This document shows positions 2 through 60,839 of a stretch of 64,000 nt of DNA, piece by piece. The notes below the pieces were generated by a model. That model did no database searches. It was not told where the DNA came from and saw nothing but the letters and a program-made list of their open reading frames with translations. The DNA lies in assembly GCA_905182985.1 (NCBI GenBank), contig CAJJDN010000035.1, positions 587,689 to 651,688 on the forward strand, in the 5' to 3' direction. This stretch comes from Paramecium sonneborni. Taxonomy: Eukaryota > Ciliophora > Oligohymenophorea > Peniculida > Parameciidae. Each line of letters begins with the position of its first letter. Position 1 is the stretch's first letter. Both the position numbers and the translations under genes were made by a program.

Positions 2-2408
2 ATATTATCAATTTTAGTCCCTAAATTTGTTCGTAATCAAATTTAACTTGGTAGTTTACATATGTAAGAAGCTTAAAATGATGTTTCTATACTTTTTTGT
101 TACATTTGTGATTTTGATTCAATAATGAAGGAAGAAGGAAGAAATGTGGTTTTAATGCTAGATTCATTATTTAGAATATTTGATAATCTATGTTTATAAC
201 ATGGAGTTTAAAAGATTGAAACTGTAGGGTATACATACATGGCAGCAACTGGTATTAAAGCTTCTGAAATCAATATTTCCCCTCATATGTTAAAAACAGA
301 GAAAACCATGAGACTTGTAAATATGGCATTTGATATGATGGAATAAATTAAAGGAAGATAATATGGAAAAGGAAATTAAATAGAAATGAAAATTGGTATT
401 CATGTTGGCAGAGTTATTGCAGGTCTTATTGGGCATCATAAACCTTAATTTTCTTTGATTGGTGATCCAGTTAATTAAACAAGTAGAGTTGGTTCAACGG
501 GAGAAATTGGTGCAATAACACTTTCAGAAGAAGCTTTTAAATAAGCAAAACATGGTATTAGATACTATCATAAAAAATAAAAGGAAGCTAAAGGATTAGG
601 TTTGATCGATACTTATTAAGTTTTTAAAATTAAACCAAACAACTATTAAATTCCAATCAATTAATAACGATGGTAATAATTAGCTAAATTAGTTATTAAG
701 TAATAGAAACTAAAAAAAAATCTTGCAGGAGAGACTTAAAAAGAAACCATTTTATAGAAAATTTAAAATTCATTAAATAATTTACATGATAATAGTTTTT
801 GGGGAAGTTAAAAAATATCTAATTCACCCAAAACTTAATTTGCACAATCTTTATTAAATGTACACTCTTTGCCTGATCAACGAAGACATAGTTAATTAGA
901 TACTATTCCAATTTAGAGTTTAGCAATTTTAGATAGTGAAGAGACATAAATAAACGATCCGTAATAAGTTTCAGATGATGATGAGAAACATAAAGGATTG
1001 CTAAAGCCCAATTTATTGTTAATGATTCCAGAAAGTTAAAACGAGATAAAGAGAAGCTTTTATAATATACATTATGAACAATAATAATTTGAAAGTCATT
1101 TTGGTTTACTATCACTTTGGATCATTTATTTTGTAATAACACTACTTAATATTATTATAAGATAATTCTTCGGACAATAATACGATATATTTTTTATTAG
1201 AGTATTAATTTATTATTTATGATTAGTCCTTATTTTTAATTTGCTTGGTAATTTTATTACCTATTATTAAACAAACTTATAAAAATATCTACATAAATTG
1301 GATATTTTATATTGTATTTTAATATGGAACTTTTACTATCATATATGGAACATATCTAGCTAATAATAAATTAGTTTCCACAATTTCAATGGTTGAGTTG
1401 ATTTATTTAGTTATTGTAGTATGTTCTTTGAAGATGTTTACATTTGTTTAAATTTTAATTTTTATGCTTTTGCTTTTTACATCATTTTTAGCATTATTTA
1501 TTGATAACAAATAAATAACTCATTATTATGTATTCTATTTATTATCAGCAATAATTTTATCATTAATAGGTTATTATAAAGGAATGTCTGAGTTAATAGA
1601 AATGTATAATAATTTGTAATTGAATGAATAGAAGAAGGTTAAATAGATTTCATTAGTGAGTCAATTATTACCAACACATTCATATTTAAAAATGAAAAAT
1701 AATACACTTTATAATCGATCTGAATTTATTGATGATTTAGATGATGTTACTTTATTATTTGCAGATATTAAAGGATTTACAGAATATTCACATACTTAAT
1801 CTCCAGAAGGAGTTGTTAAGATGTTAAGAAATCTATTTACTGAATTTGATAAATTGTGTTTACAATTTAATGTTTATAAAATGTATACTATTGGAGATTG
1901 TTATGTTGTTATGGGTTTTTAATAAGCTAGTAAGAGAAATGTAATATATTTATTTATTAAAAATTAGCCAATTCAAGAAGCCATTAATACTGTGAAAATG
2001 GGATTTTCTATGATTGAAATAATAATGGAAGTAAGAAAATTGATTGATTTTCCTTTATTAAATATGAGAATAGGAATACATACAGGATCTATAATTGGAG
2101 GAATTATAGGAACAGATATAGTTCGATATGATATTTATGGATAGGATGTTAGTATTGCAAATAAAATGGAGAGTTCTGGAACTGAAGGACATGTGTAAAT
2201 ATCTGAAACTACAAAATTAATGATAGAGAGAGCAGAAAGAAATCCTTTTGTATTTTAATTTAAATAAAATGTGGAATTAGCCAAATTTAATACTTCAATA
2301 AATGGATATCTAGTAGAATGGGAAAGAAAGAAAAGGGATCGAGGTGAAAGTCATTTTAGAGGGGAACCTAATTTAATGAGAGATATAAAAGAAAGTCAAA
2401 ATTTGTGA
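2..2408 (+). CDS. Guanylyl/adenylyl cyclase, class III, 3' part (5' end outside window)
   Basis: Two class III nucleotide cyclase domains separated by a membrane block. The frame is open at the window edge and enters the first domain (motifs ICDFD, DNLCLQHG, then IGDPVNQTSRVGSTG). A linker rich in Q and charged residues follows, then about 170 hydrophobic residues (around 1095-1620) that can form six helices, then the second domain with LLFADIKGFTEYS, YTIGDCYVV and IGIHTGSIIGG. A 25-nt intron at 1202-1226 removes an in-frame TGA and restores frame; 1931-1957 is a probable 27-nt intron. The layout matches the ciliate guanylyl cyclases, whose N-terminal half is a P-type-ATPase-like membrane unit; that half would lie upstream and is not seen. 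Likely role: cGMP synthesis at the plasma or ciliary membrane. TGA stop at 2406-2408. Confidence 0.85.
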
Positions 2409-32544: not shown

Positions 32545-33853
32545 CCTATCCATTTATTAATTTACTAACCTTTATATTCAATTAAATAATCCTTATCCTA
32601 TTATTCCATATATTAATAGTTGAATAAAGGAATTTAATTATAGAAATTCATGTTATTTTTAACAATATCAATCAATAAAAATTATTATAGATTCATTTTT
32701 ATTATTGTTTCAATTATATAATGTTGTAATCTTTGTAAAGCTAAAAAATAAAAGATTAAAAAGCTTGTATCATCTTTATTTATATCAAATATTCTCTAAT
32801 AATTCTCAAACCTTTATACTCTTTTTAGATGTTACTGTTAATCATAACCTAATATTTTATTGTTTAAAATTAAATTAGTTAACATTGCTTCATATAATCA
32901 ATCAGATTTAAATTCCTTTCATGTAAAATAAATCTTTCATCTGTATTATTAAGGCTTTTGCATTATTTTGTATAGCTTTTTAATTTAACTATTTATTTTG
33001 TTCATGCTTTGATCTACATTAATCTACTTAATATTATTTAATCGTATTTATGGCCAAAATAATCCTAAAAAAATATTATTTTTGCATTTTCATTTTATTT
33101 CCTTAAGTATTGATAATTTTTTTTTATTTTTCATTAAAGTCAAATAATATTTCTTTACCTTCTTTTATAATTAAGTTCTTTATATTTTTCATTTATTATT
33201 TTATATTATTCTTCTGGAATATTTAATTATTAAATTTTATTATATTATAAAACTTTAGAAATAATTCTCTTACAATTTCAATTAAATTAGCAGAAATTAA
33301 TTTTTTGCATTTTTAGCTTAATTAATTAGTTATTCGCATAAATAATCATATATGAAAACCATCTAAAATTTGAAGTCTGTAACAATTTTCATAATTTATT
33401 TAGTTTAAGTTAAATCTTAAAAATTCTTCAATTTTAAACTATCTATTTAATTTTACAACTTCGTAGGATTTTTTTTTAATAGATTTCTAACTTTCTTTAA
33501 TCTTAGTTTCTTCTGAGGGTATATTAAAGACAGAATATCAAATTGAATATTTAATATTCGACTAAACTTAAAATAAAAAATAACATTTTCTTTTCAATTA
33601 GTTCACTATTAACATTAGAATAAATAAAATTTAAATGATTCTATTGAATTTGCCATTCTTTCAATCTTTCTTATTTTGCTTAGAATAACTTTTCGATTAA
33701 ATCTAAAAATTCTATTGTTAATTTAATAATTTTGAGATATACTTATTGTTTAAGCTAAGAATAATAAAAAGTAGAAGAATAAATAAAAAACAAATTTCAA
33801 TTAGGCAAAATTCTAAAATAATAGTATTAAAATCTTGGAAATGCTTGATACAT
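32545..33853 (-). CDS. Multi-exon hypothetical protein, ends uncertain
   Basis: Several blocks of good coding quality on the minus strand shift frame in the manner of short introns: LTIEFLDLIEKLFQAKQERL, then YEVVKLNRQFKIEEFLRFNL, then LIEIVRELFLKFYNIIK, KHEQNKQLNQKAIQNNAKAL, and finally YFLALQRLQHYIIETIIKMN with FLLIDIVKNNMNFY. The proposed start is ATG at 33851-33853. The 3' end is not settled: the last frame runs past 32545 without a TGA and would overlap the convergent small gene, so a last intron is missing from my model. Helical and probably cytosolic; function unknown. Confidence 0.45.
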
Positions 33854-34106
33854 TTATATATTTAAAAGTTGAATTTAAAACCATTAATTTAAGCTTTAAG
33901 AGATAATCATTGAATATAATCTAATTGATGAACAACTTCATCAATTATAAATAAAAAGACAATGAAATTTTATAGTTTGAGAAATTAAGAACCTAATGAT
34001 AGGATTTTGAGATCTTATACATAAATTATATTAATAATCACAATAGCAAGAAAAATAAAAATTTTGTATATAAATATGTAATTAATATTAAGAACTTATA
34101 TTTCTA

Positions 34107-35108
34107 TCATATATTTCTATAACCACATCTTTATTCAGAATTATAATATTCATAAGTTTCTTAAACTTTATCTTTTTTTAAGTTAAAGTAATCTAAATAA
34201 TTTTCTTCTACCTTCTTTCTTGATATCCACTTCTTATCAATATCATAAATGAAAAATAAATATTCATAATAACATTTCTCATTTTGATTGTAAAAATAAT
34301 AGTTATGAAACTCAATTTTAACAGGAAAATATTAACCATTATAATTGCATCCTTGCATATTATTAATACACTGGTTAAAAGTGTTTAAAATAAAGAAATT
34401 ACTTAGATGTTATAAACTTTGATAATTTTCTGAGAAATATAAAGGAATGGGTAAATACCCAGTCTCCATTGCATGATGGATGACCATCTCATAATTTATT
34501 CCTATTGAATTTAAATATAAGTCATTCATAAATCTTTACTAAGTAATTATTTGATCATCTAATACCTTCGATATATACCCAGTACATGGTTTATCAATCA
34601 TATTCTCAAAATTAAATAAGTCTTGTTCCTTTAACACAAAAAATTATGATGAATCTAATTTTTTGTAATGCAATTTCTCAATAGATGATCTCAAATATTG
34701 ATTTCCTCTACTTAAAATATGAATAATATTTTCAAAAGGAGTAAGACTTTTCTAAATTGGATCAAATGTAACAGTTGTAATATTACCATGCCTATCAATT
34801 CTGTTAATCTTGTAATTATAACAATAAAAATCGATATTAAGTTAACCTAGTTTATATTGATTATTTGCATTCCTAGGAATTTATACATTTGATTTTAGTC
34901 TAAAACTGTTGTTTAATTGAATTGATTTTGGTATACTCACCTCAATAAATTCTACATACTTCTATAATTTTAATTCCTTTTACTACAAAAATTACTCCTA
35001 GAACTTATCCTCTTTAGTATATTGGTTTTTTTGTCTTCGTTTTTCAACTATCTTTTTGATTTCTATCTAATAATCATCATTTATTTATTTCTTAGCTTGA
35101 GTAATCAT
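34107..35108 (-). CDS. Hypothetical protein, intronless, possible DNA- or RNA-binding start
   Basis: 333 residues in one frame. The N-terminus is strongly basic and helical (IEIKKIVEKRRQKNQY) and recalls the basic part of bZIP-type factors, though the canonical N-x7-R/K spacing is not clear. The rest is a globular domain with YCYNYKINRIDRHGNITTVT, TPFENIIHILSRGNQYLRSS, a PAS-like FENMIDKPCTGYISKVL, and a Tyr/Phe-rich end FIYDIDKKWISRKK. I do not recognise a family. A broken copy of its C-terminal coding part lies at about 60,840-61,000. Confidence 0.65.
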
Positions 35109-35579
35109 TTTGACCAAATAATAAAGATAATTAATCTTTTATTTTTATTTTAATACGGATAAACTTAAAATGTTCTTTATATATAAATTATTATTTTCAT
35201 TATTTCTTTCAGAATTGAAAAGTTCAAATAAGATTTATCTTATCAAGGTTTTAAAATTTATAAGGTATTTGTAGGTCTAATTTAAAAATTGATTTTATTC
35301 CTGAAAAATTAATATAAAATAATTATTATAAATTATGATGTTATAAAAATGTAAAATACTCTTTAAATTAGAACAATTACATTATGGAAATATTTCACAT
35401 AATGAATAATCAAAAAATCAAAGTAGAATGGTTCGATCTATTTAGATTTATGATCAAGTAATAAAACATCTTTATTAATAAGCTCATAATATTTTCCATA
35501 AAAGAAGGATAATAATTTTTGTTAACTTTTCTAGATATATATTAAGGATATATTGTTAAAATATTTATTATATATTTAT
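35109..35579. other. AT-rich gap
   Basis: About 470 bp between two minus-strand genes; holds the promoter of the 34.1-kb gene and the 3' flank of the fusion gene. No element recognised. Confidence 0.5.
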
Positions 35580-37817
35580 TCATTAAAATGAAAGAAACTT
35601 CATTAAAACTTATTAACTGTTAGTAATTTCAAAATTTCCTTGAATGTTTCTTTTTTTACACTCTTCTTAAGCTCTCATTTAATCACCACAAAAAATTAGA
35701 GTACGATTTTTGTATTTCATTTATTAATATAGATGCTATATTAAATCAATACCTGCTGTATAGTTGATCTAACCTTGTTCAACTCTTACCATATCACTAA
35801 CAACTCTAAATTAAGATTATTCTAAATATATCATCCATTTATATTTTTCGATAATAAGAATTGCATCTTAAGTTGAGACACAAAATATAACAGAAAAGTT
35901 ATTATTTTACTTTTCTAAATCTTCAGCAAATTAATAATTGTTTTCTGGATTGTCATCAACCCATAATAATACTTAAGTTGATCTAGGTAAAGGTAATTCT
36001 CTCATAGTTACAATAAGAGGTTATTAGAGATCAATAACTTAAACGTCATCAATAATAAAATTTGAAAAAGGATACATTAATAATTCTTATTCTCCTTCAT
36101 AAATTGATATTTTTCCTATGTCTTTGGCACTTATAAGTTCAACTTAAAAAATCATTCCTTAAGAATTACTAAAATTTTAAGCAATTTTCTTTTTTAATGA
36201 AACACTACTAACTTCACTCCATTACACAATCTTTCCCTTTTGATACACTGTAGTATTTTAATAATTCTTAATTCCACGATATGCTACTCCTTTGTAATAT
36301 TTCATATATCGAAGCCCTTCCATTAAACATTTTAAATATTATTTCCAATTTTCATATTCTGTTGTTCTGAGATCTTAATTTAAGTTTCGATAGATTAGAT
36401 TACTAGTGTATAATTATATTGCTATTATACAATGAAGAGGGATTTATTAATAGTCTTATTTCTTCAATTAATTATTATTTATCTCTTACAAACAGCATTC
36501 AATAAATTCATTAATTTTACAATTCCCCAACCATTATAAAGAATCTTTAAGTTTAGATATATTTTCAACTTATTTATCATTTAATTATAAAGTAAATTTT
36601 AATTAAATTCCTCCAGATTATTGATCTATGAAGAAAATACTTTAAACATTTTATTTATCTTTTAATTCCCTTATTGATCCATAAGGTTTTCCATTACATA
36701 ATATTAATGATCTTTTTATTTCATCACTAGATGCACATATTAATGCAATATCTTAATAATCTATTTTATTTGAATTCTTGTTTATTGATAATCGATATTC
36801 TTCATTTTTTACTATAATTGTAATAATATTATTATTATCAGTATTTTAATAAATATCTTATTATTATTCTTTAGAAATTGATAATACTTTTAATATTAAT
36901 GGATCCTATTTCTTTTGATTTAGATACTTATAATTATCATATTTATAATAATCTTCTAATGCAAATTCATCTTTCATTAATACTCCTTTATGATATAACT
37001 ATTATGATTAAATTGGTATTCCTTTCTTATTTTAAATAATAACTTTTATTTGTTAAATTAAAAAATATGGTAATACTTCAAATTCTTCTTTAATGCCATT
37101 AATTTCAATATATATTTTATTTTCAGGTACTTTAACTTCATTGACAAATTCTTTTATTATTTTAATTGTTCCATTAAAAAGTTCAATAAGAGAAATTTAA
37201 GGAAAAAAACCAGAACCACCCCCGCGTAATCTGTAAAACATATAAATTTTAGATTCTTCTTTCACTTAATAATCATCAAACAGCTTATTATCGTCTAATG
37301 ATTTCCCAGCAAAAGTCATTCTAATATCTTCTGGTGGATAGTTCTAGCTTTCACCTCTTTCAAAAATCTCTTTTTTTACATCATAAACAGATTTACAATG
37401 TGTGTAGACAATTATAATTTTTCCAGTTGGAATTTCTATAAACACTTTGTTACTTTTAGGAAAATTTTCACCTTTTTTAAAAATTACAACCATATTACTT
37501 TTAAAGGCATAATCTCTGAATTTTTATTTTCTATTCACTGTTAATCCATTTCCCATCATCATCTACACATAATTAGGATCTTCATTATATGGTAAATATT
37601 TTTAGCATACTTTTATAATAAATTTTTCAATGATTTATGAAAAATCTATGATTTCTGCTTTTTATTCTTCTATGTTAAATCGCTACAAATCAAGAAAAAT
37701 TAAAATATTTTCATTTCCCTATTATATGTAATTACCTTAATTGTCAAAAAAGGCAATTTCATCAACTAATGGAGGTAGTTCATCAACCTTTTACCATTTT
37801 TTAAATGAAGCAAGCAT
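35580..37817 (-). CDS. Tandem ubiquitin-like / mono-ADP-ribosyltransferase / receiver-like fusion protein
   Basis: 745 residues in one intronless frame. Residues about 38-115 look like a degenerate ubiquitin fold (NGLTVNRKQKFRDYAF). Residues 125-201 form a clear ubiquitin-like domain (VYDVKKEIFERG, RMTFAGKSLDDNKLFDDYQV) ending L197-R-G-G-G201. Residues 235-312 form another (IQNKKGIPIQSQQLYHKGVL). About 325-403 may be a fourth beta-grasp unit ending S401-G-G403. Residues 470-610 fit R-S-E-class ADP-ribosyltransferases: YRGI (Arg514), W533-SEVSSVS540, and the E-x-E loop EGEQELL (Glu576, Glu578). Residues 616-745 resemble a response-regulator receiver: LLWVDDNPENN (Asp621, Asp622) and VVSDM (Asp675). 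Expected reaction: transfer of ADP-ribose from NAD to protein; the ubiquitin-like parts may be processed or act as targeting modules. Each part is recognised by motif only. Confidence 0.75.
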
Positions 37818-38476
37818 AATATATTTGAATATTATTATTTTTATAATTATTAATTTAATATTATTGTAAGTATTTTTAAATTAATAATAGAATTCCAAAT
37901 AAAATAGTTGAGTACAGCCTAAAATCATTAGTTTTATTAAATTAATTAACCAATAAGATATATTATAGCATCTTTATAAACTCTTCATTATTCATTTAAC
38001 GAAATAAGAATATCAAAATGAAATTATATTTTATATATTTTAATATAAAACAATTGAATAAGCAGATCATTAACCTAATATATTGATATAATACTTTTAT
38101 AATATATAATTACCTTTTTCGAAATTATTTATTCTCTCATTCCATTTTTAATAATTTTCTCAATTAATTTATCTCCATAGAAACTATTAACGAGAAATAT
38201 GATATCATAATCTGAAAATATTAATATTAAATTAAAATTATGATTAGAAATTAAAAATAATTCTAGAATGAATTTTTAATTGAAGAAATATAAATATGTT
38301 TTTTATCTTTTTTTAGTTTGTTCATTAAAATTACAAATTTTAGTAGTTAATTTGTTATGCATGTTTATTTATAAAATTAAAGCTTAAGAATTAGTTGAAA
38401 ATATTTGAATTAATATAATGTTCATATTAAGAGATTTATAAATGTAAATAAATAAATTTATAAAATAATAAAACTT
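37818..38476. other. AT-rich divergent intergenic region
   Basis: About 660 bp between the divergent fusion gene and ankyrin gene. Both promoters should lie here. No RNA gene or repeat recognised. Confidence 0.5.
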
Positions 38477-39536
38477 ATGTCTAAAATAGATTGGGAATAA
38501 AAGCTTAAATAATATCATGCATTAAAAGATAGAAAATCGATAACAAATATGTTATAGATTAAAACAAAAAATATGAGATTATCACCATCATTAGGATCAA
38601 CAAGAGCTGGAACAGAAATAAATTCTTTTAGATTAAAGAGATTAAAGACTCCAATAGATGATGGAATATAGTAAATAAAGACTAGTAGATCTTAATAAGT
38701 ATGTAAAGATAATTGAGGAGGTATCTCCATTAAAAGATGTTTGCCCTTGGAATACTTAGACACCATTATAAAGATTAATGAAAATAGATAAAGCAACAGA
38801 AAAGGAAAAAAGGGTTTTACAATAATTTATATGTAATAAATGGCTAAAGGAAGTCATATAAAAAAAGAGCATACATGTAGCTATACCAAAAGTATCAGAA
38901 GAAGAAAAAAGAATGAGAATATAAGAATTTGAGACTTCAGAACATCATAGATAATTAAGAATATAATAATCTTTAACTCCAAATATGAGTAAAATGGAGA
39001 AAGTCTTTTGCAAAATAAAAATATTTTGTAAATTAGCAAGTTAGAGAGAAATAAATTTAAAAGATTAAATAAGAATAAATAATGATTATCGTCGATTAGT
39101 GTTTTTTGTTCATTTTAGAAATGAAGATTACAAGATATGTGATTAAATGATAAATTCTGATCCTCATATAAAAAATGCAATTGATATGGTATAAGTTAAC
39201 TCAATTTAAGTAAGGTGATAGACCTTTACATATTGCAGTGAGAAGAAATAATTTAAGATAATTATCATATATATTAAATAAGTAACCTGATTTGGAAGCA
39301 GTTAATTTTTATGAATAAACAGCATTAAATTTAGCGATATTATTAAAACATTATGAAATCTAAAAAGTATTTCTTTAAATAAAAATTTGATTCTTTTAGT
39401 TAATGGATGTAGTCCTTGGAAGATATTTAAACCAAATAAATTAGTGAAAACAGCTATTCTATATAGGATGAGAATGATATGTGAACATACATAATTATAT
39501 GATGAATTGGCTTATTGTTTGAGTATAATTAATTGA
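38477..39536 (+). CDS. Basic protein with C-terminal ankyrin repeats
   Basis: Start MSKIDWEQKLKQYHALKDRK, a basic N-terminal half, then a helical linker (MSKMEKVFCKIKIFCKLAS) and ankyrin-like repeats: GDRPLHIAVRRNNLRQLSYI, LEAVNFYEQTALNLAILL and GCSPWKIFKPNKLVKTAILY. A 22-nt intron (39190-39211, AAG acceptor) restores frame before the first repeat. Two further junctions, near 38,690 and 39,365-39,400, are not resolved, so the exact protein length is unknown; the TGA at 39534-39536 is the best end. Probable adaptor protein; partner unknown. Confidence 0.6.
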
Positions 39537-39551
39537 AATTTAATTATTTTT

Positions 39552-41433
39552 ATGGATAAATTTGAGAAGCGTCTAAATCAAGTAAATATGGTAACACCCA
39601 AAAATCCAGTTACTTAATAATCAAATCTTAAGTAAACTGATGCTGCTAAGAGTTATGCTTCTTTTAATGATTTTAATAAATTGGGAGATTAATATGATAA
39701 TGAAGCTGTCAATTTGAGATCATAAGTTTAAATTTTAGAAGGCAAACTATAATTTTATGAAAGAGAATTTTAAATCAAAGTAATAATAATATTGTTACAA
39801 ATTTAAGTAATCATCTTTAGAGAAAAGAATATAATAATTGATATCTACTTCATCTTAACTAACTCAATAAAATACACAACTTAAGTTATAATAATCAGCT
39901 TTATTAAATGAATATTAAATTCTATAAGATAAATTAATATAATAAGAATAAGGTTAGAAAGAGTATGAAGAGAAAGTTAGATCATAAATTGAAGGTTTGA
40001 ATAAATTTCAAATTGAAAAAGAATAATTAATATAATATGCAAATAAATGTAGAGAAAGATCAAAATAAAGGAAAATCAAAGTTAAAGATTTAACAGCTAA
40101 AGTATAAGAATTATAAGAATAAGTTAAATAATTTGAATTATAATTTGAATAAGCCAATATTGAAAAATAATAGATTTATGATTAACTTTAATAATAAATT
40201 GTATTACTATCTGAATAAAATGAAGATTGGCAAATGAAATATGAAACTATTGTAGAAAATTTTAAAAATCATCTCGCAGATCAAACAGATAGCTAATAAG
40301 AAGAATAATTATTAGGTACTCATACTATTTTAGATTAAAGAGAAGCCTAAACTGTTCAACAACAATTAGAAAATTTTAGTTTATTAAATAGAGAATTAAA
40401 TTAATTATTAAATCAATTGAAAAATCCCAATCAAATCAAACCTTAAATATTTGAAATGCCTTAAATTAAAGAATTAGCAGAAATTTTTGGTAGAATGATA
40501 GATAAATTGTTGGAATTATAATAAAAAAAGTCTTAATTAAAAGAATAACTAAAAGTATTTTTTAAATAAATAAATTTATAGTAAAATTAATTCCATTTGT
40601 AGTAATAGGCTTCAATAAAATCTAGTTCTGGGAATTAGAGTCCAAATATTCATGATGAGAGAACTAAAATGCTCTTTGAATAAAGAATCCTTGAATTAGA
40701 GCAGTATGAATGATTTAATCCTAGATTCTATTAGAGAGACAATAAACAAGAAAAAGTTAGATCCATTACTTAACCAAAATATAATGATAGAAAACTAAAA
40801 TAAGTAATTTCAGTTATAAACTAAATTTTGGAAGAATTTCTTAAGTAACAAAAACACCTTTCTATTTTGAATCTTCATTTAAATAAAATTCAATATGATC
40901 CAAACTTTACATAAAGTAAAAGATCATTAAAAGTTTTTATTTGGGTAGTGATAGCCATAAGTCGAATGAAGAAAATAAAGAATTCAACTTATTATTAATA
41001 ATTTGTATAATATAAGAAATTGAGAATTGAGATGCCCATCTTAGATTCTTTTAATCAAATATTATAGCTTATAAATAGTTAATAATATTTAATAGATACA
41101 TTATAAATAGCTGTTGAATAAAAAGGATCTGATGGAGGATTATAAGAACAAGAAATACAATAGATGGTTGATGAAGAATTAAGATAATAATTGATGACTT
41201 TATAGGTTGAACTTGATAATAATAATAAAAAAATGATTGAATATAAAATTAAATCAGAATAAGATTTAGAAGAAAGAGATCAATTAATTCATGAATTATA
41301 GTAATAACTTTAAGAAATACCAAATGATTACAATTAAGAATTAATGGAACATTTAGAAGATCAAAATAACAGAGTTAAAAATATTGAGATTGAATTCAAT
41401 TTATTATAGGATCTTGTCAATTCATTAATGTGA
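39552..41433 (+). CDS. Centrosomal-type coiled coil with PACT-like C-terminal segment
   Basis: 601 residues after introns 39780-39807, 40555-40581 and 40704-40724; the length closes to a multiple of three. Residues 60 to 350 are coiled coil very rich in Q, E and K. Around residues 440-490 lies RSLKVFIWVVIAISRMKKIK, a hydrophobic patch followed by paired basic residues, the pattern of the PACT domain that brings pericentrin and AKAP450 to centrosomes and basal bodies. A further coiled coil ends the protein. In a ciliate this suggests a basal-body scaffold. The PACT call rests on pattern and position, not alignment. Confidence 0.65.
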
Positions 41434-41836
41434 ATTATTAACATATCAATTTCAATTATTATTTATTTTTGATTTTGTCATAATAGAAATGTAAGTTACA
41501 TTTAAAAAAGATGGTATTATTTTTATTATTATTAAATACTTTTATAAGATATAAAAATAAAAATAGTAATGATTTAATTCTCTAATCTATCATTTAAAAG
41601 TCTTTCTTGCTATCAACTAAGTTGACGTTAAAGCATTTCTTGTTACGTCATTTAGTATAAAAGTGTATTAATTGTTTAGTTCTCTTGAACTATGATGGTA
41701 GGATAAGTATATTTAATAATGATTAATACTAATGTTAAAACACATAAATTATAAGTATGTATAAATTATTACATAGAAGAAATAAATTCCTTTTTATATT
41801 ATGTTAATTAATAATATATTTTAAAATTTAACGATC
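41434..41836. other. Intergenic region before kinesin gene
   Basis: About 400 bp. Slightly less AT-rich between 41,590 and 41,710, where TTGACGT and TTACGTCA lie about 25 bp apart. No known RNA structure recognised. Confidence 0.45.
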
Positions 41837-44289
41837 ATGAATACATCTTTTCCAAAAATGTCAACTTCTTCGTTAAGTCAAACAGCCTCTTAAACAAATT
41901 TTTATGAATCAAGTCCAATGTCATCACATTCAATAAAATAGTAAAGTTCAAATGACAATTTTAAAGTGGTTGTAAGAGTTAGACCTCCTTTATAAAGAGA
42001 AGTAGTGGATGGAAGATTTATATCTACTATTTAAGTATCACCAGATCATAAAAAAATATGTTTATACGAATATTACAATATTGATTTGGTAGAACCTGAA
42101 CATTTAGAAGATTATCTAAATAATCCAAATAGTTACACAATGCATACGTTTTCCTTTGATTATGTTTATGATTAAGATAATACATAAGAAGAAGTATATG
42201 AAAACACAGCTAGAAATGCAGTTTAATCAGCACTTTAAGGTTTTAATGCAACAATAATGGCTTATGGATAGACAGGAACTGGTAAAACATATACAATGGA
42301 AGGATTTAAATATAATTGTATTGATCCATAGAGAGGAATAATTCCAAGGGCTATAGAAGAAATATTTAAACATATATCTAATGGATCAAATGAATCAACT
42401 ACTTTTATGGTTAGAGTTAGTTATTTATAAATTTATAATGAAGTTATTAGTGATTTATTAAGAAGTGATAGATAAAATTTACTTATAAGAGAAGATAAGA
42501 AAAGAGGAGTATTTGTAGAAGGTTTATCAGAATGGGCTGTTCGCAATCCTGGTGAAATCTATTAATTAATATAAAAAGGAGCATCATCAAGAGCAACAGC
42601 TAGTACTAAAATGAATGATGTAAGCAGTAGATCACATGCTGTATTTATAATTATAGTAGAATAAATGACAGAAATAGATGGACATAAATCAATTAAAGTA
42701 GGAAAATTAAATTTAGTAGATTTAGCAGGTAGTGAAAGAGTAAGAGTTACAGGAGCTACAGGAAGAAGATTAGAAGAATCTAAAAAAATTAATTAATCTT
42801 TAAGTTGTTTAGGTAATGTCATTTCTTCATTAATTGAATAAAAAAATCATATTCCTTATAGAGATTCTAAAATTACTAGATTGTTAGAAGATTCATTAGG
42901 TGGTAATTGTAAAACTACTATGATGGGAATGATTTCACCTGCTATTGATGCTTTTCTTGAAACTTTAAGTTCAGTTAAATTTGCTAATAGAGCTAAAAAT
43001 ATTAAAAATAAAGCTACTATTAATGAAGATGTTGATTAAAAAGCACTTTTAAGGAAATATGAATGTGAATTATAAAGATTAAGAAAAGAGCTTTTAGAAA
43101 AAAATAAAACTTTGATTGATGCTACTAAATTATCTCAGTTAGAAGAAGATAAAAAAAAAGCTGAATAAGATAAAAATGCTGCAATGGCAGCTCTTGAAGC
43201 TAGAAGCAAATAATTTTTTATTGAAAGAGAAGAAAAGAAAAAATTAGAGGAAAAAATTAGATAAATCAATAGTCAAATGTTAATTGGAGGTTGCAATATA
43301 GAAAACAGTCCTTTATTCAGAAATGCTATTGAAGAATAATAAAAACTTATTCGAGCATAGTATGAAAAAAAAATTAGTGATTTAGAAAAAGAAAGATCTT
43401 AAATGGAAGAAGATAAAGTTTAAGTTGATAGATATAAATAATTAACTTTAAAATAAAGAGATATAATGATTGCATTAACCACTAGATTAAATGAAAGAGA
43501 TGAAACTATTGTACAATTATAAGATGAACTAGATGCATATGATAGAATTCATAGAGAAACTGAAACTATGTTAGATTAAAAGATATAAAGAATTATGCAA
43601 TTAGAAGATTATATTAATTCCATAGGTTGCAATATTCCAAACATTTAATAAATGCAATAATTGAAATAAAGTAAATTTAAGGATTGTGTAACTTAAGATG
43701 GCTAGGACACTTATAATATTACCAAAGAGAATTTATAAGATTTTGAATGTTAAATTGAATAATTAACTTTAATAAATTAAGAATAAGAATAAGAAATTCA
43801 AAAATTAAAGAATTAAATTGAATGTTCTAGTAATTCAAATGTGATGGATTTTGTTAGATGTAACTTATAATATATGATAATAAGCTTCTGTTGATAACAT
43901 AATAGAGGCCTTATCCTAACCAAATGATGGATTTAAATTACAAAGCGTCGCAAAAGATCTGATAACTCTTCAAAAAATACTCTCGAGTGAATAGACTAGT
44001 GGCGTAGTATTTTCAAATATCTAAAATATGGTATATTCAAGGAAAGAATCTCCATTGCCTAGTAATTAATCTAAGAAATCAATAAATAATTCCTAAAATT
44101 AAGAAGAAGATGATGAGCCTCGATAGTTAAATAATTTCTATACATTTTCTAAGTACGTAATACATTAAAATTAGTAAATCATAAACATCTTCAATGAAGA
44201 AACAAAAAGATCCATCTTTGCCAAAACCTCAGATAAATGTCCAAGAAATAATAAAAATGAGAGAAGTAAAAAGAAACCTCTATTCTTGA
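41837..44289 (+). CDS. Kinesin motor protein, N-terminal motor (801 residues)
   Basis: 802 codons after introns 43860-43884 and 44153-44174, closing to a multiple of three. A short Ser-rich leader precedes the motor domain at about residues 45-390: [10 protein letters not shown]-loop AYGQTGTGKT (residues 144-151), switch [10 protein letters not shown], switch [11 protein letters not shown], and the neck-linker-like [20 protein letters not shown]. The stalk is coiled coil ([29 protein letters not shown]). The tail is Ser/Lys-rich. A plus-end-directed microtubule motor is expected from the N-terminal motor. Family assignment within the superfamily is not possible by eye. The second intron lies in the tail and fixes the true stop, 395 bp beyond an apparent one. 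Confidence 0.92.
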
Positions 44290-46310: not shown

Positions 46311-47903
<1,593 letters not shown>

Positions 47904-48014
47904 AAAACATCTACATTCACATTTAAATAAAAACAATAATGCTCTTTATATATTAGATATTATATTTTAGTTTATTCTATTCAATCATCTAAATTCTTCA
48001 TTTATTTATTATTT

Positions 48015-49508
48015 ATGTATTCAAACAATTTTAAATCTCTGCAAGATCACTCTCTATCCAAGGATAAGCTTATCTATTCTTTAGATAGTTTAAATACATA
48101 GCCAAAATCAAAATAAAAATAAATCTTATAGAGATTTTACTAAACTTAAAATTTTAGTAAATTAATCAATCAAGGTCAAAAGAAATTATCTACAAAAAAG
48201 GAAGTATTCTCAACTAACATTATTCTTAATACTACATTAAGGAATGTTACTCCAAAAATTAATCACATTAATTAAGAAGTATCTCTTATATTAATATAAC
48301 TCTAGTATTATTTTTCCAAACAATAGTAATTATAAACTACTGTTAGATAACCAGAGAAAATAAGCAAAACGCTTTAATCAGTGTTGAACAAACCAAATCA
48401 GAATTTTAATCAAGAATATTCTAATAACAAAATAGGCTAAATCAACACAGATAGAAAGCATAATTTAATATCTTTAAATTCCACCAAATTAATTCAAAAA
48501 AGAAAAACAGAAAATTAAGAATAAACAATAACCAAAGAAAAAAATAATTACAAATTAAATTCTCCTCTTCTTATTAGTTTAGAAGATGTTGTCACTCAAG
48601 TCACAACACAAAATCTTTCAAAGTCTAAGATATCACCTTTCGAATAAGCTAAATCATTATCTCCACCAAATAAAGAATTATCTCTTAAAAAGAAAAGTAT
48701 TTATTGTGTATAATTTAGATAACATCTACTATGTCTCAGCAATGTGTGAATCAATGATAGATGACACCAATCCTATGAGTTAAATATTTTAGGATCATGC
48801 AATCTAAACTTTCAACAGCATAAATTTTTGTTTGAACTAATAGGAAAAAGACTTACATTAGATACAAGAAAAAATGATAAAATGGCCAAAGCAAAATACA
48901 AAATGTAAATAAAATCTTAGATTCAAGTTAATAAAACAATTGTTTTTGACTTAGATGAAACATTAATACACTGTTATGAAAATAACACAACAAAACCAGA
49001 AATTTTATTGCCCATAACTTTTCCTTCAGGAGAAATTGTAATAGCTAATATAAATGTTCGTCCTTGGGCAAAAGAAATATTATTAAAATTATCCGAAGTT
49101 TGTGAAGTTGTAATATTTACAGCATCTCATAAATGTTATGCATAATAGGTTATTGAGTTGCTAGATAAGTTTAAAGTAGTATCTGCATCATTATTCAGAG
49201 ATCATTGCTAAATCACAAGTGAAGGAGTCTATATTAAAGATCTTCGAATATTAGGAAGAGATATGAAAGATGTTGTTTTGATTGATAATGCTGCTTATAG
49301 TTTTGGAGTTCATATTGAAAATGGGATACCTATCATTCCTTATTATGATAATAAAGCTGATAATGAGTTAAGATTATTGTATGATTTTTTGATCAGTAAT
49401 GTTCTTCCTTCATTTGATTGTAGAAAAATCATACAAAATACATTTAGATTAAGGGAATTTGCAAATTACGTAACTCCAAAATTAGCTATTAAAAAACTAT
49501 ATTTTTGA
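48015..49508 (+). CDS. SCP/NIF-type CTD phosphatase-like protein
   Basis: About 485 residues. A long Ser/Asn/Gln-rich N-terminal half is followed by a catalytic FCP/SCP domain of the HAD superfamily: VFDLDETLIHCY with the D-x-D-x-T core from about 48948, IFTASHKCYAQQV, SLFRDHC, YIKDLRILGRDMKDVVLIDN and a C-terminal NELRLLYDFL. The family removes phosphate from Ser, often in the RNA polymerase II tail. Splicing just before the domain is ambiguous: either introns of 22 nt (48697-48718) and 14 nt, or one 36-nt intron (48745-48780) ending GAG; both keep the frame. The stop TGA abuts the next gene's stop on the other strand. Confidence 0.82.
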
Positions 49509-58130: not shown

Positions 58131-60479
58131 TCATAAAAGTTCTTCATATCTAAAAAATGTAGATGGTTTCCTTGCTGTATTTGGTTTGCATAACGATCTG
58201 TCACTGTGTTGTGAGACGGGCCTTTAATTATCTATAACCATAAGTGGAGTTGTAGGTTAGTGATACTTAGTCTCCATTAATTGAAATTATGACAATTTCT
58301 ATTAATTAATAAGATTTTGCCTTTTTAGTTGCTAAATATATTTATTATTTTACTTGTATCAATTATTCATTCTTCTCTTTTAGTTTTTCAACATGTTCAA
58401 CTAAGTTTTATCTTTCCAACGAATATCTTTATTTATCGAGCTTTAAAGCTTCAATTTTTAATTCTTCACTTTTATTTGGCTTTATAGATTCATAATGTGT
58501 GATATAATCCATGACTCCTTGTTCAATAAGTGGATGCTTTAGAGACTCTTCTATAATCTCAGATATTTTCTTAAAAAAATCTTGAGGTAATTTTAAATTT
58601 ATTAGATTTGTTGTAATTGATCGATGAATAGTATTAAATAAATTTTAGAGTGATAACTTTTGCATTACTTGCTCAATTGTTTATGATTTCGAAATTATCT
58701 TTGTTAATTTACTTTAAGTAATTTCTCCACAAATTATTTGTTCTAATTTTCTAGTATATTCAAAATTGATTTAATCCATTTTATCTCTAAATTAATTGTT
58801 TTAGCAGTCATCAATATCAATATTCAAAATATTTAACTAATCATTTAATGAAATGATTTCATCAATTAATATTTGATTCTATTCTGTTTTCACATTATTT
58901 TCACCCTTTTGTAATTTATGAATTATCTTTTCAAGACACTCAATTTTTGAATTTAATTAAGTTATTTTAACTTATTTTCTCTAGCATTCTATTTTAGATT
59001 AACCTAATGAGATTCTGAGATCATCAATTTATTTCAAGTAATTAACCTCATTTTCCTTTTAATCTATAATATTCTCAGGTTAAGATGCTTTTTTTGATGA
59101 AAAGAATGATAAATCAATTTGAAGACAAGATTTATCGGTCATCAGACTCATTGATGGGTGCTTTGACTTATTTGCTTTCTCTTGATTAATTTAAGAGTCG
59201 TATTGCTTTATCAAATTATTTTCGTTTGGGATGTCTAAAATAGATTTTCTTTTTAACTATTCTAACTCTTGATGAGCTAACTATAATTACATCTTCAAAT
59301 CTTTAATCATCTATTGCATCATTTCTGAGGACATCTTTATATTCATTTTATAGTGATTTTTAATAGATTTAGCTCTTGATGCAAATTTTAATGTGCTAAT
59401 GGTCTCATCCATTGAACTAGCATGAGATGAACAGGTTACAATCTATTTAATATATTAATAAATTACTAAAGAGGTTTTATAATTTCCACCTAAGGATTCT
59501 TATAAAATTCTAGTTAATTTCGAATTTCTGTAAGGAATATGGTCATTGTTGGTAGTCAAAGCATGAATGACATTTCCTAAGCATGAAAGTGACAAATTAA
59601 TTTTTTTAGCTTCCTCCAAAATTTCTCCTTGTGCGCCAGTTTTGCCCACCTTTTCTGATCCAGCTAAATCAACTAGATTTAATTTTCCTTTCTTTTCTGT
59701 TTCGTTAGATAATTTCTATTTGATTTCAAGCATGAAAATAGTATGAGATCTTGAACTATATTAATTAATTCTGGTTGCAGCAACCTTTCTTGTTTATTCT
59801 CCTAGTTCTACAATTCTAAGTAATTCATCTTAACTTTATAATGATATTTAAGTTAGACCTTCTACATAAATACCTTTAGTTGCACTTTCCTTAATCTTTA
59901 AATCAGGACGCTGCATTGAAAGTAAATCAAATAAGGTTTCTTTATAGATTTCAAGCATAGAACAAGTTAAAACAAATTCGCATTCTGGATCACTTTAATT
60001 AATATACGTAAATATCTCTTAACTAAAAGGAGTATAATAATCGAATACATTGATCTTGGTATTATGCCTTTACCAATTGAATCTCGTAACTCGCCAAACA
60101 TTGTGTAGGTTTTTCCTGAGCCAGTCTATCCATAAGCAAAGATAGTGCTATTATATCCATTTAAGACATCTTAAATTGCATCTCTTCCAACTGAATCATA
60201 AACTGATAATTGATTAGAAGTTGGTGGGAAAACTCTATCAAATGTGTGGACGACATCCTATTAAAGAAGTACAGTATGTATGTCTGGAAAAATACAAAAG
60301 TCTTAAGTTGGATTGTTCTCTTCCATTTTGTTTAAAGGCCGAAAGCGAGCAAACACCTTGATATTGGAAGTGTTTTCTGATAGGGCATTTCTTGGAGAAT
60401 TCAGTCTTTTAGGCATAGGAGATTTTGCTCTTTTTTTAGCCGAACTATCTGAATCAAATAACGCAGGGATCTTCTTCAT
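58131..60479 (-). CDS. Kinesin motor protein, N-terminal motor (758 residues)
   Basis: 759 codons after introns 60023-60048, 59443-59466 and 58332-58353; the length closes to a multiple of three. Motor from about residue 40: [19 protein letters not shown]-loop AYGQTGSGKT with its first Gly at residue 117, [19 protein letters not shown] (switch I), [17 protein letters not shown] (switch II), LTRILQESLGGN and [13 protein letters not shown] long coiled coil follows and a basic Ser/Pro/Thr tail. Motor sequence and neck most resemble conventional kinesin-1-like motors. The last intron shifts the end from an apparent stop at 58202 to 58131, giving the tail [15 protein letters not shown]. Confidence 0.92.
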
Positions 60480-60839
60480 TGTTAACTGTTAAATAATTTA
60501 ATTTAAAGAATTTTTTATTTATTTATTTTTTAAGGAAAATTAAGGAATAAATTAATTATGTGCAATAATACTAAATGTTTAATTAAATTAACTTTTCAAA
60601 AATTATTCCAATCAAATCATATTCAAGTTATAACCTTTTAATTAAACTCATTTTCTTTATTTTCTTTGATATGAAGCAAATCATCAACTAGCCAAAAACA
60701 GTTCATAATAGTACATGGTTAAAATCTTGATGAAATATTAAACAAATATTAAAGAGATGATAGGAAGTTCTAATTTATTAAGTTTAAGAGAAAATTGACA
60801 TTAGAATGATGATAACTGTTATTAATTCTAAGCATAAAC
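60480..60839. other. AT-rich gap upstream of kinesin gene
   Basis: About 360 bp containing the promoter of the minus-strand kinesin gene; nothing else recognised. Confidence 0.5.

Follow-up and report, generated by a model that had tools for sequence, protein, structure and literature searches.

What can a single eukaryotic protein do with ubiquitin-like units, an ADP-ribosyltransferase (ART) and a receiver domain of prokaryotic type, and from what was it built? The question is raised by a gene on the minus strand (35580..37817) of a 64,000-nucleotide stretch of the Paramecium sonneborni contig CAJJDN010000035.1, which as a whole we call the window. We propose, at a probability of about 0.52, that the gene encodes a BUBL-family protein without a BIL (intein-like) domain, which would act as a receiver-switched arginine mono-ART with its ubiquitin-like units fixed in cis.

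Read with the ciliate code (table 6, TAA/TAG=Q), the locus is a single uninterrupted frame that encodes 745 amino acids before its stop, and 63 of its codons are reassigned ones; with table 11, no open reading frame (ORF) of at least 100 amino acids overlaps 33000-41000. Seven intron candidates (GTA..TAG, 20-35 nt) lie in the gene, two of them multiples of three, and because both of these fall in segments that the paralogs also have, no intron is required. The first-pass annotation had read a 746-codon intronless frame here, which agrees with our result, and the residue numbers it quoted are exact: LRGGG at 197-201, IQNKKGIPIQSQQLYHKG of the second ubiquitin-like unit at 261-278, Arg514, SEVSSVS at 534-540, EGEQE at 574-578 and VDDNP at 620-624. 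Its ubiquitin-like domains and its ART are both recovered by Pfam, the former in two stretches (PF00240, 52.5 bits, cut-off 25.4) and the latter at 41.2 bits (PF01129, curated cut-off 22.3). A scan of NCBIfam returned rad23 and XopAI alone, both far under cut-off. The full-length AF2 model, built without an alignment, has a mean pLDDT (predicted local distance difference test) of 30.5, and the identities of the ubiquitin-like units (UBLs) and the ART come from the profile matches.

The three-part order is real, being common to six intact genes of the genome (91.5 Mb in 289 contigs searched): the one in the window and five further long copies, L002, L003, L004, L005 and L006, found on contigs C18, C39, C72, C1 and C70, respectively. 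L004 requires a putative 23-nt intron, and the start of L003 has no obvious in-frame ATG. The window protein is 54% identical to L002 over 727 aligned residues and 55% identical to L003 over 733; at the receiver, L002 is the closest copy (76%). Fragments of the family also occur, and the six-copy alignment leaves out those at C113, C39:106 kb and elsewhere. The C113 fragment (L061/L008, C113:334566-334946) is a family receiver of 38% identity on a contig with no ART match, and by eye it adjoins a histone H3-like frame; other fragments lie at C41 and C61. A genome scan with PF01129 listed three places and missed the window copy itself, and is not a census.

Three of the sister genes reveal what the window copy lacks. 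In L002, L003 and L004 the units that we call UBL-a and UBL-b are separated by a segment of about 140 residues that starts GG-Cys and ends His-Asn-Met. In L002 this segment matches Pfam Hint (46.3 bits) and, with an E of 4.7e-15, the structure 6Y75, which like 6TMM is a structure of BIL2 of Tetrahymena thermophila BUBL1. In a protein search, BIL was found at three genome places only (C18, C39 and C72), and both this search and the alignment show it to be absent from the window copy. A stub is left instead: after RLRGG the window protein reads GSGF and then FPQISLIELFNGTIKIIKE (amino acids 205-223; 37149..37205, on the minus strand like all gene features below), which corresponds to the L002 BIL start FPGDAPIKLFNGTIKRIKE, with 13 of 19 residues identical, and is collinear between homologous units. 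The stub scores 58 against the L002 BIL start and 57 against that of L003, and none of 5000 shuffles scored as high in either case; for L004, which is more distant, the score is reached by 179 of 5000 shuffles. At this junction the position of BIL Cys1 is gone and about 120 BIL residues are missing.

Because BIL is absent, a 19-residue stub remains and the rest is homologous to the BIL-bearing copies, the window gene is, on homology, a BUBL-family gene without a self-processing domain, that is, a BIL-less derivative and not a BUBL gene proper. The absence of BIL noted in the first-pass annotation therefore stands for this copy, and what it missed is the family membership, disclosed by the stub and by the BIL in three of the five other copies. 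Since the receiver tree places the window copy with L002 and L003 (96/93) and L004 with L005 (97/82), BIL would most simply have been lost at least twice, in the window copy and in L005; L006 either lost its BIL or never had one. With three members carrying BIL and three without, the six sister copies form a natural series for testing the role of BIL in ubiquitin-like signalling.

The ubiquitin-like units themselves differ in kind. The N-terminal segment (amino acids 1-115; 37473..37817) holds a weak unit, UBL-0, which has no Pfam match of its own and clusters with its counterparts in L002 and L003 (100/99; 47-54% identity). UBL-a (amino acids 124-200; 37218..37448), which ends RLRGG and is matched by PF00240 and, over amino acids 124-200, by PDB ubiquitins, is the most ubiquitin-like unit of the protein (36% identity to ubiquitin) and forms a clade with ubiquitin and L006 UBL-a (90/91). 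The UBL-a units of L002 and L003 pair together elsewhere in that tree (99/99), and identity between the window UBL-a and those of the BIL-bearing copies is only 17-22%. UBL-b (amino acids 233-312; 36882..37121) has no GG tail at its end; it matches PDB ubiquitins and is 53% identical over 62 columns to L004 UBL-b. UBL-c (amino acids 328-406; 36600..36836), a weak unit ahead of the ART, groups with UBL-c of L002 and L003 (89/84) and is homologous in the paralogs; its beta-grasp nature is putative. Elsewhere the genome has a long polyubiquitin array (L054, C102:144300-148800), two ubiquitin fusions resembling Ub-L40 (L055 and L056) and another ubiquitin match (L058).

The ART (amino acids 413-612; 35982..36581; Pfam match at amino acids 464-589) matches solved mono-ARTs among the PDB sequences by profile, including Vis and rat ART2. 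The R-S-E signature claimed for it is present, with Arg514 (36276..36278), Ser537/538/540 and the E-x-E residues Glu576-Gln577-Glu578 (36084..36092); Arg514 and Glu576 are invariant in all six copies, and Glu578 is kept in five. Most likely, judging by motif and profile, the working part of the protein is an arginine-specific mono-ART. ART-like matches outside the family were seen at C26:148679-149191 (L010; 39.1 bits to PF01129) and, by protein search, at G000:C49:234156-234647 (33.3 bits). None of 122 ART pattern matches in viral contigs was confirmed.

For the C-terminal domain (amino acids 613-745; 35583..35981), a fold search supports the proposed receiver fold and points to a prokaryotic type; two of the 50 rows listed carry non-receiver titles (8oyp and 9ckx). 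No match above the Pfam cut-off accompanies it: Response_reg (PF00072) matched none of the six copies, and the best receiver found by the receiver profile among PDB sequences stands at E 1. The link to PF00072 was reached solely via prokaryotic relatives, by a Pfam scan of 10 of their 36 loci. In a BFVD fold search viral and phage receivers ranked top, with no closer relative, and none of 44 receiver pattern matches in viral contigs was confirmed.

Among the 36 prokaryotic loci, 26 were translated and scored and 14 entered the tree. The scored relatives reach 18.5-44.7 bits, compared to -0.2 to 5.3 for host receivers (22 of 50), a gap that is biased because the prokaryotic rows were found by the family's own motifs. 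The better evidence is the tree, in which the family groups with an atypical prokaryotic lineage apart from the 22 host receivers (100/100). Descent from the host's own hybrid kinases is rejected by this tree and by the score gap, and the receiver is, on phylogenetic grounds, of a prokaryotic-type, non-host lineage. Within that lineage, a patatin-type phospholipase of Saprospiraceae is fused to the same receiver (L050:1543-3366; 28.3 bits to Response_reg, below cut-off). Six further loci (L027, L035, L036, L040, L045 and L052) appear by eye to start with a winged-helix-like region, followed by a hydrophobic stretch and, at the C-terminus, this receiver; L027, the sole one of these six scanned, has Trans_reg_C and Response_reg in Pfam.

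The acidic pocket is present in the window copy, comprising the pair Asp621-Asp622 (35952..35957; Asp621 in six of six copies, Asp622 in five, with Glu in L005) and the phospho-acceptor position Asp675 (35793..35795). By alignment, the Thr/Ser and Lys switch residues are absent, with G711 and T732-N733 at those positions, so that the phospho-sensing role once suggested for this domain is unsupported. The domain might be switched by a ligand or a nucleotide. Because the acidic residues are kept but the Thr/Ser and Lys positions are lacking, we predict an orphan, kinase-independent switch of ART activity; the fused receiver probably gates the ART.

Selection separates the parts of the chain. We estimated omega (the ratio of non-synonymous to synonymous change) on the window branch by a counting method, with L002 and L003 as references and a bootstrap over codons (1000). 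Omega comes to 1.79 [0.88-5.71] for UBL-b+c but to 0.38 [0.24-0.68] for ART plus receiver, where the share of the 1000 bootstraps above 1 was printed as 0.00, although synonymous divergence (dS) is near equal in the two (0.20 and 0.21); the ART alone gives 0.43 [0.22-0.90]. By part, dS is 0.80 in UBL-a, 0.56 in UBL-0 and about 0.2 in UBL-b, UBL-c, ART and receiver. The contrast shrinks when L002 is compared with L003 (0.73 [0.46-1.14] for UBL-b+c, 0.41 [0.28-0.60] for ART plus receiver). On the omega contrast at near-equal dS, the ART and the receiver together make up a conserved core; UBL-b and UBL-c seem to be either released from constraint or under pressure to change, chiefly in the BIL-less window copy.

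The high value for UBL-b+c would also suit an early pseudogene in which BIL and the UBLs have decayed and the rest is still in frame. Decay does happen in the family, because a frameshifted, stop-bearing copy, L059 (C39:105500-108800, nt ~1200-2300; C39:106.6-107.8 kb), lies on the same contig as intact L003. In the window copy, however, 745 codons are open, the ART motif and the receiver acidic positions are retained and the core has the low omega given above, and we hold that the gene is improbable as a pseudogene.

UBL-a shows no detectable constraint on the window branch (omega 1.00 [0.34-3.84]). A recent replacement of this unit was rejected as a firm claim, though its dS and its place in the tree fit one, because replacement and fast divergence of the sister units are inseparable where the alignment is so little identical. 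The same unit bears on a different fate of the chain, in which ordinary host deubiquitinases would take over the job of BIL and, as they do with polyubiquitin, cut after RLRGG; UBL-a could then enter E1-E2 conjugation, and UBL-b/c, ART and receiver would become a separate enzyme. Its nearness to ubiquitin fits such cutting, as do the tail YRLRGG, the most ubiquitin-like of the six (the others read HYRGG, RRLGG, HYGG, KQYGG and KLAGG), and the polyubiquitin-like junction LAGG-MQLF of L006. Nevertheless, Gly-Ser and not Met follows the GG in the window protein, the receptor surface of UBL-a is lost by eye, and a unit with this omega and this dS of 0.80 shows no sign of constraint. We consider release by deubiquitinases rather unlikely.

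Fast evolution of UBL-a, -b and -c compared to the core could further be expected of an intracellular defence or conflict effector, whose variable UBLs face a fast-changing opponent while ART and receiver form a conserved killing or signalling core. In favour of this, the receiver lineage includes the one bacterial fusion with a patatin-type phospholipase described above, and the copies are dispersed and share no neighbours: across the six stretches searched, 0 of 99 neighbour ORFs matched (many of the 99 being chance frames), which also rejects a segmental duplicate that includes neighbours. Such a role is distinctly unlikely all the same, as there is no link to infection or symbionts and positive selection is unsupported by an interval that includes 1. 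As to location, L002 occupies C18:808987-811599 of 811620, its start ~21 nt from the contig end, and the window copy, L003 and L006 each lie less than 50 kb from a contig end; no telomere-like repeats were matched in the window.

We thus return to the receiver-switched arginine mono-ART. BIL, which would normally cut the chain and pass on the preceding ubiquitin-like unit, is lost, and because it is gone the ATP-free hand-over of that unit would be impossible in the window protein. The ubiquitin-like units would then stay attached and act in cis, either by docking to partners that handle ubiquitin or by serving as substrate for the ART of the same chain. Several observations weigh against this proposal. 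The case for receiver control of the ART is the fusion itself, and the receiver pocket varies, Asp675 being Asp in four copies and Asn in L003 and L004. L002 has Asp for the catalytic Glu at position 578, so some copies may be inactive. For the receiver alone omega is 0.33, and its wide interval [0.15-1.62] leaves constraint on that domain insecure; the interval for UBL-b+c takes in 1, and UBL-0 is under constraint (0.37 [0.17-0.76]), meaning that not every ubiquitin-like unit is free. Finally, the Leu8-Ile44-Val70 patch of ubiquitin is replaced in UBL-a by Pro, Thr and Phe (by eye), which would weaken docking to ubiquitin receptors.

A bolder version would have the prokaryotic orphan receiver gate an ART that targets mainly the fused ubiquitin-like unit, a self-contained ubiquitin/ADP-ribose switch. 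Arg166, 196 and 198 of UBL-a, the candidate targets, align by eye with Arg42, 72 and 74 of ubiquitin. We regard this as a long shot. If true, a protein that once dispensed ubiquitin became, on losing its intein-like activator, a signalling device that modifies itself, and a free-living eukaryote offers a parallel to the ubiquitin-ADP-ribosylation chemistry of Legionella.

Among five neighbour ORFs scanned with Pfam in the window, one was assigned a family: the frame at 1074-2405 (+) has a guanylate/adenylate cyclase catalytic domain (148 bits). By eye, the frame ahead of it (62-1222) resembles a second cyclase domain, and two genes resembling kinesin and one resembling ATP synthase beta lie at 41732-43894 (+), 58201-60611 (-) and 46342-48387 (+). 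GC content is 32% at 46-48 kb.

How does this protein compare with known systems? The ADP-ribosylation of ubiquitin at Arg42 by Legionella SidE effectors resembles it in idea, an analogy only, and no phosphodiesterase domain was matched by Pfam in the window protein. With arginine mono-ARTs (PF01129; Vis, rat ART2, HopU1) it shares the R-S-E signature with E-x-E and the profile match, and it differs from them by its fusion to ubiquitin-like units and a receiver. Another likeness is to the BUBL genes, with Tetrahymena thermophila BUBL1 as the type case, in which one chain likewise joins ubiquitin-like units to an ART; in the account of BUBL1 and its BIL2 (PMC8616854), BIL transfers the ubiquitin-like unit before it to an acceptor, a reaction that needs no ATP. 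The P. sonneborni sister copies carry a BIL matching BIL2 at the same junction, and the window protein differs in having lost it, leaving the stub, and possibly in the receiver after its ART. The claim that the three-part order is undescribed accordingly holds in part: the ubiquitin-like and ART combination is already known from BUBL1, and the literature searched, which lacked most subscription journals, contained no UBL-ART-receiver protein, no BIL loss with a stub and no prokaryotic-type receiver on intact copies. The C-terminal domain of the window protein is of the same lineage as prokaryotic orphan receivers of the form LWVDDNPxNN...SDMGR...TSS (e.g. L018, L020 and L023). In the 26 translated loci the proteins that carry these receivers often have, by eye, a winged helix or else an N-terminal stretch that is hydrophobic, and one has a patatin; here the receiver sits on an ART in a eukaryote, and three chemistries, ubiquitin-like conjugation, ADP-ribosylation and two-component-type switching, are joined in one chain.
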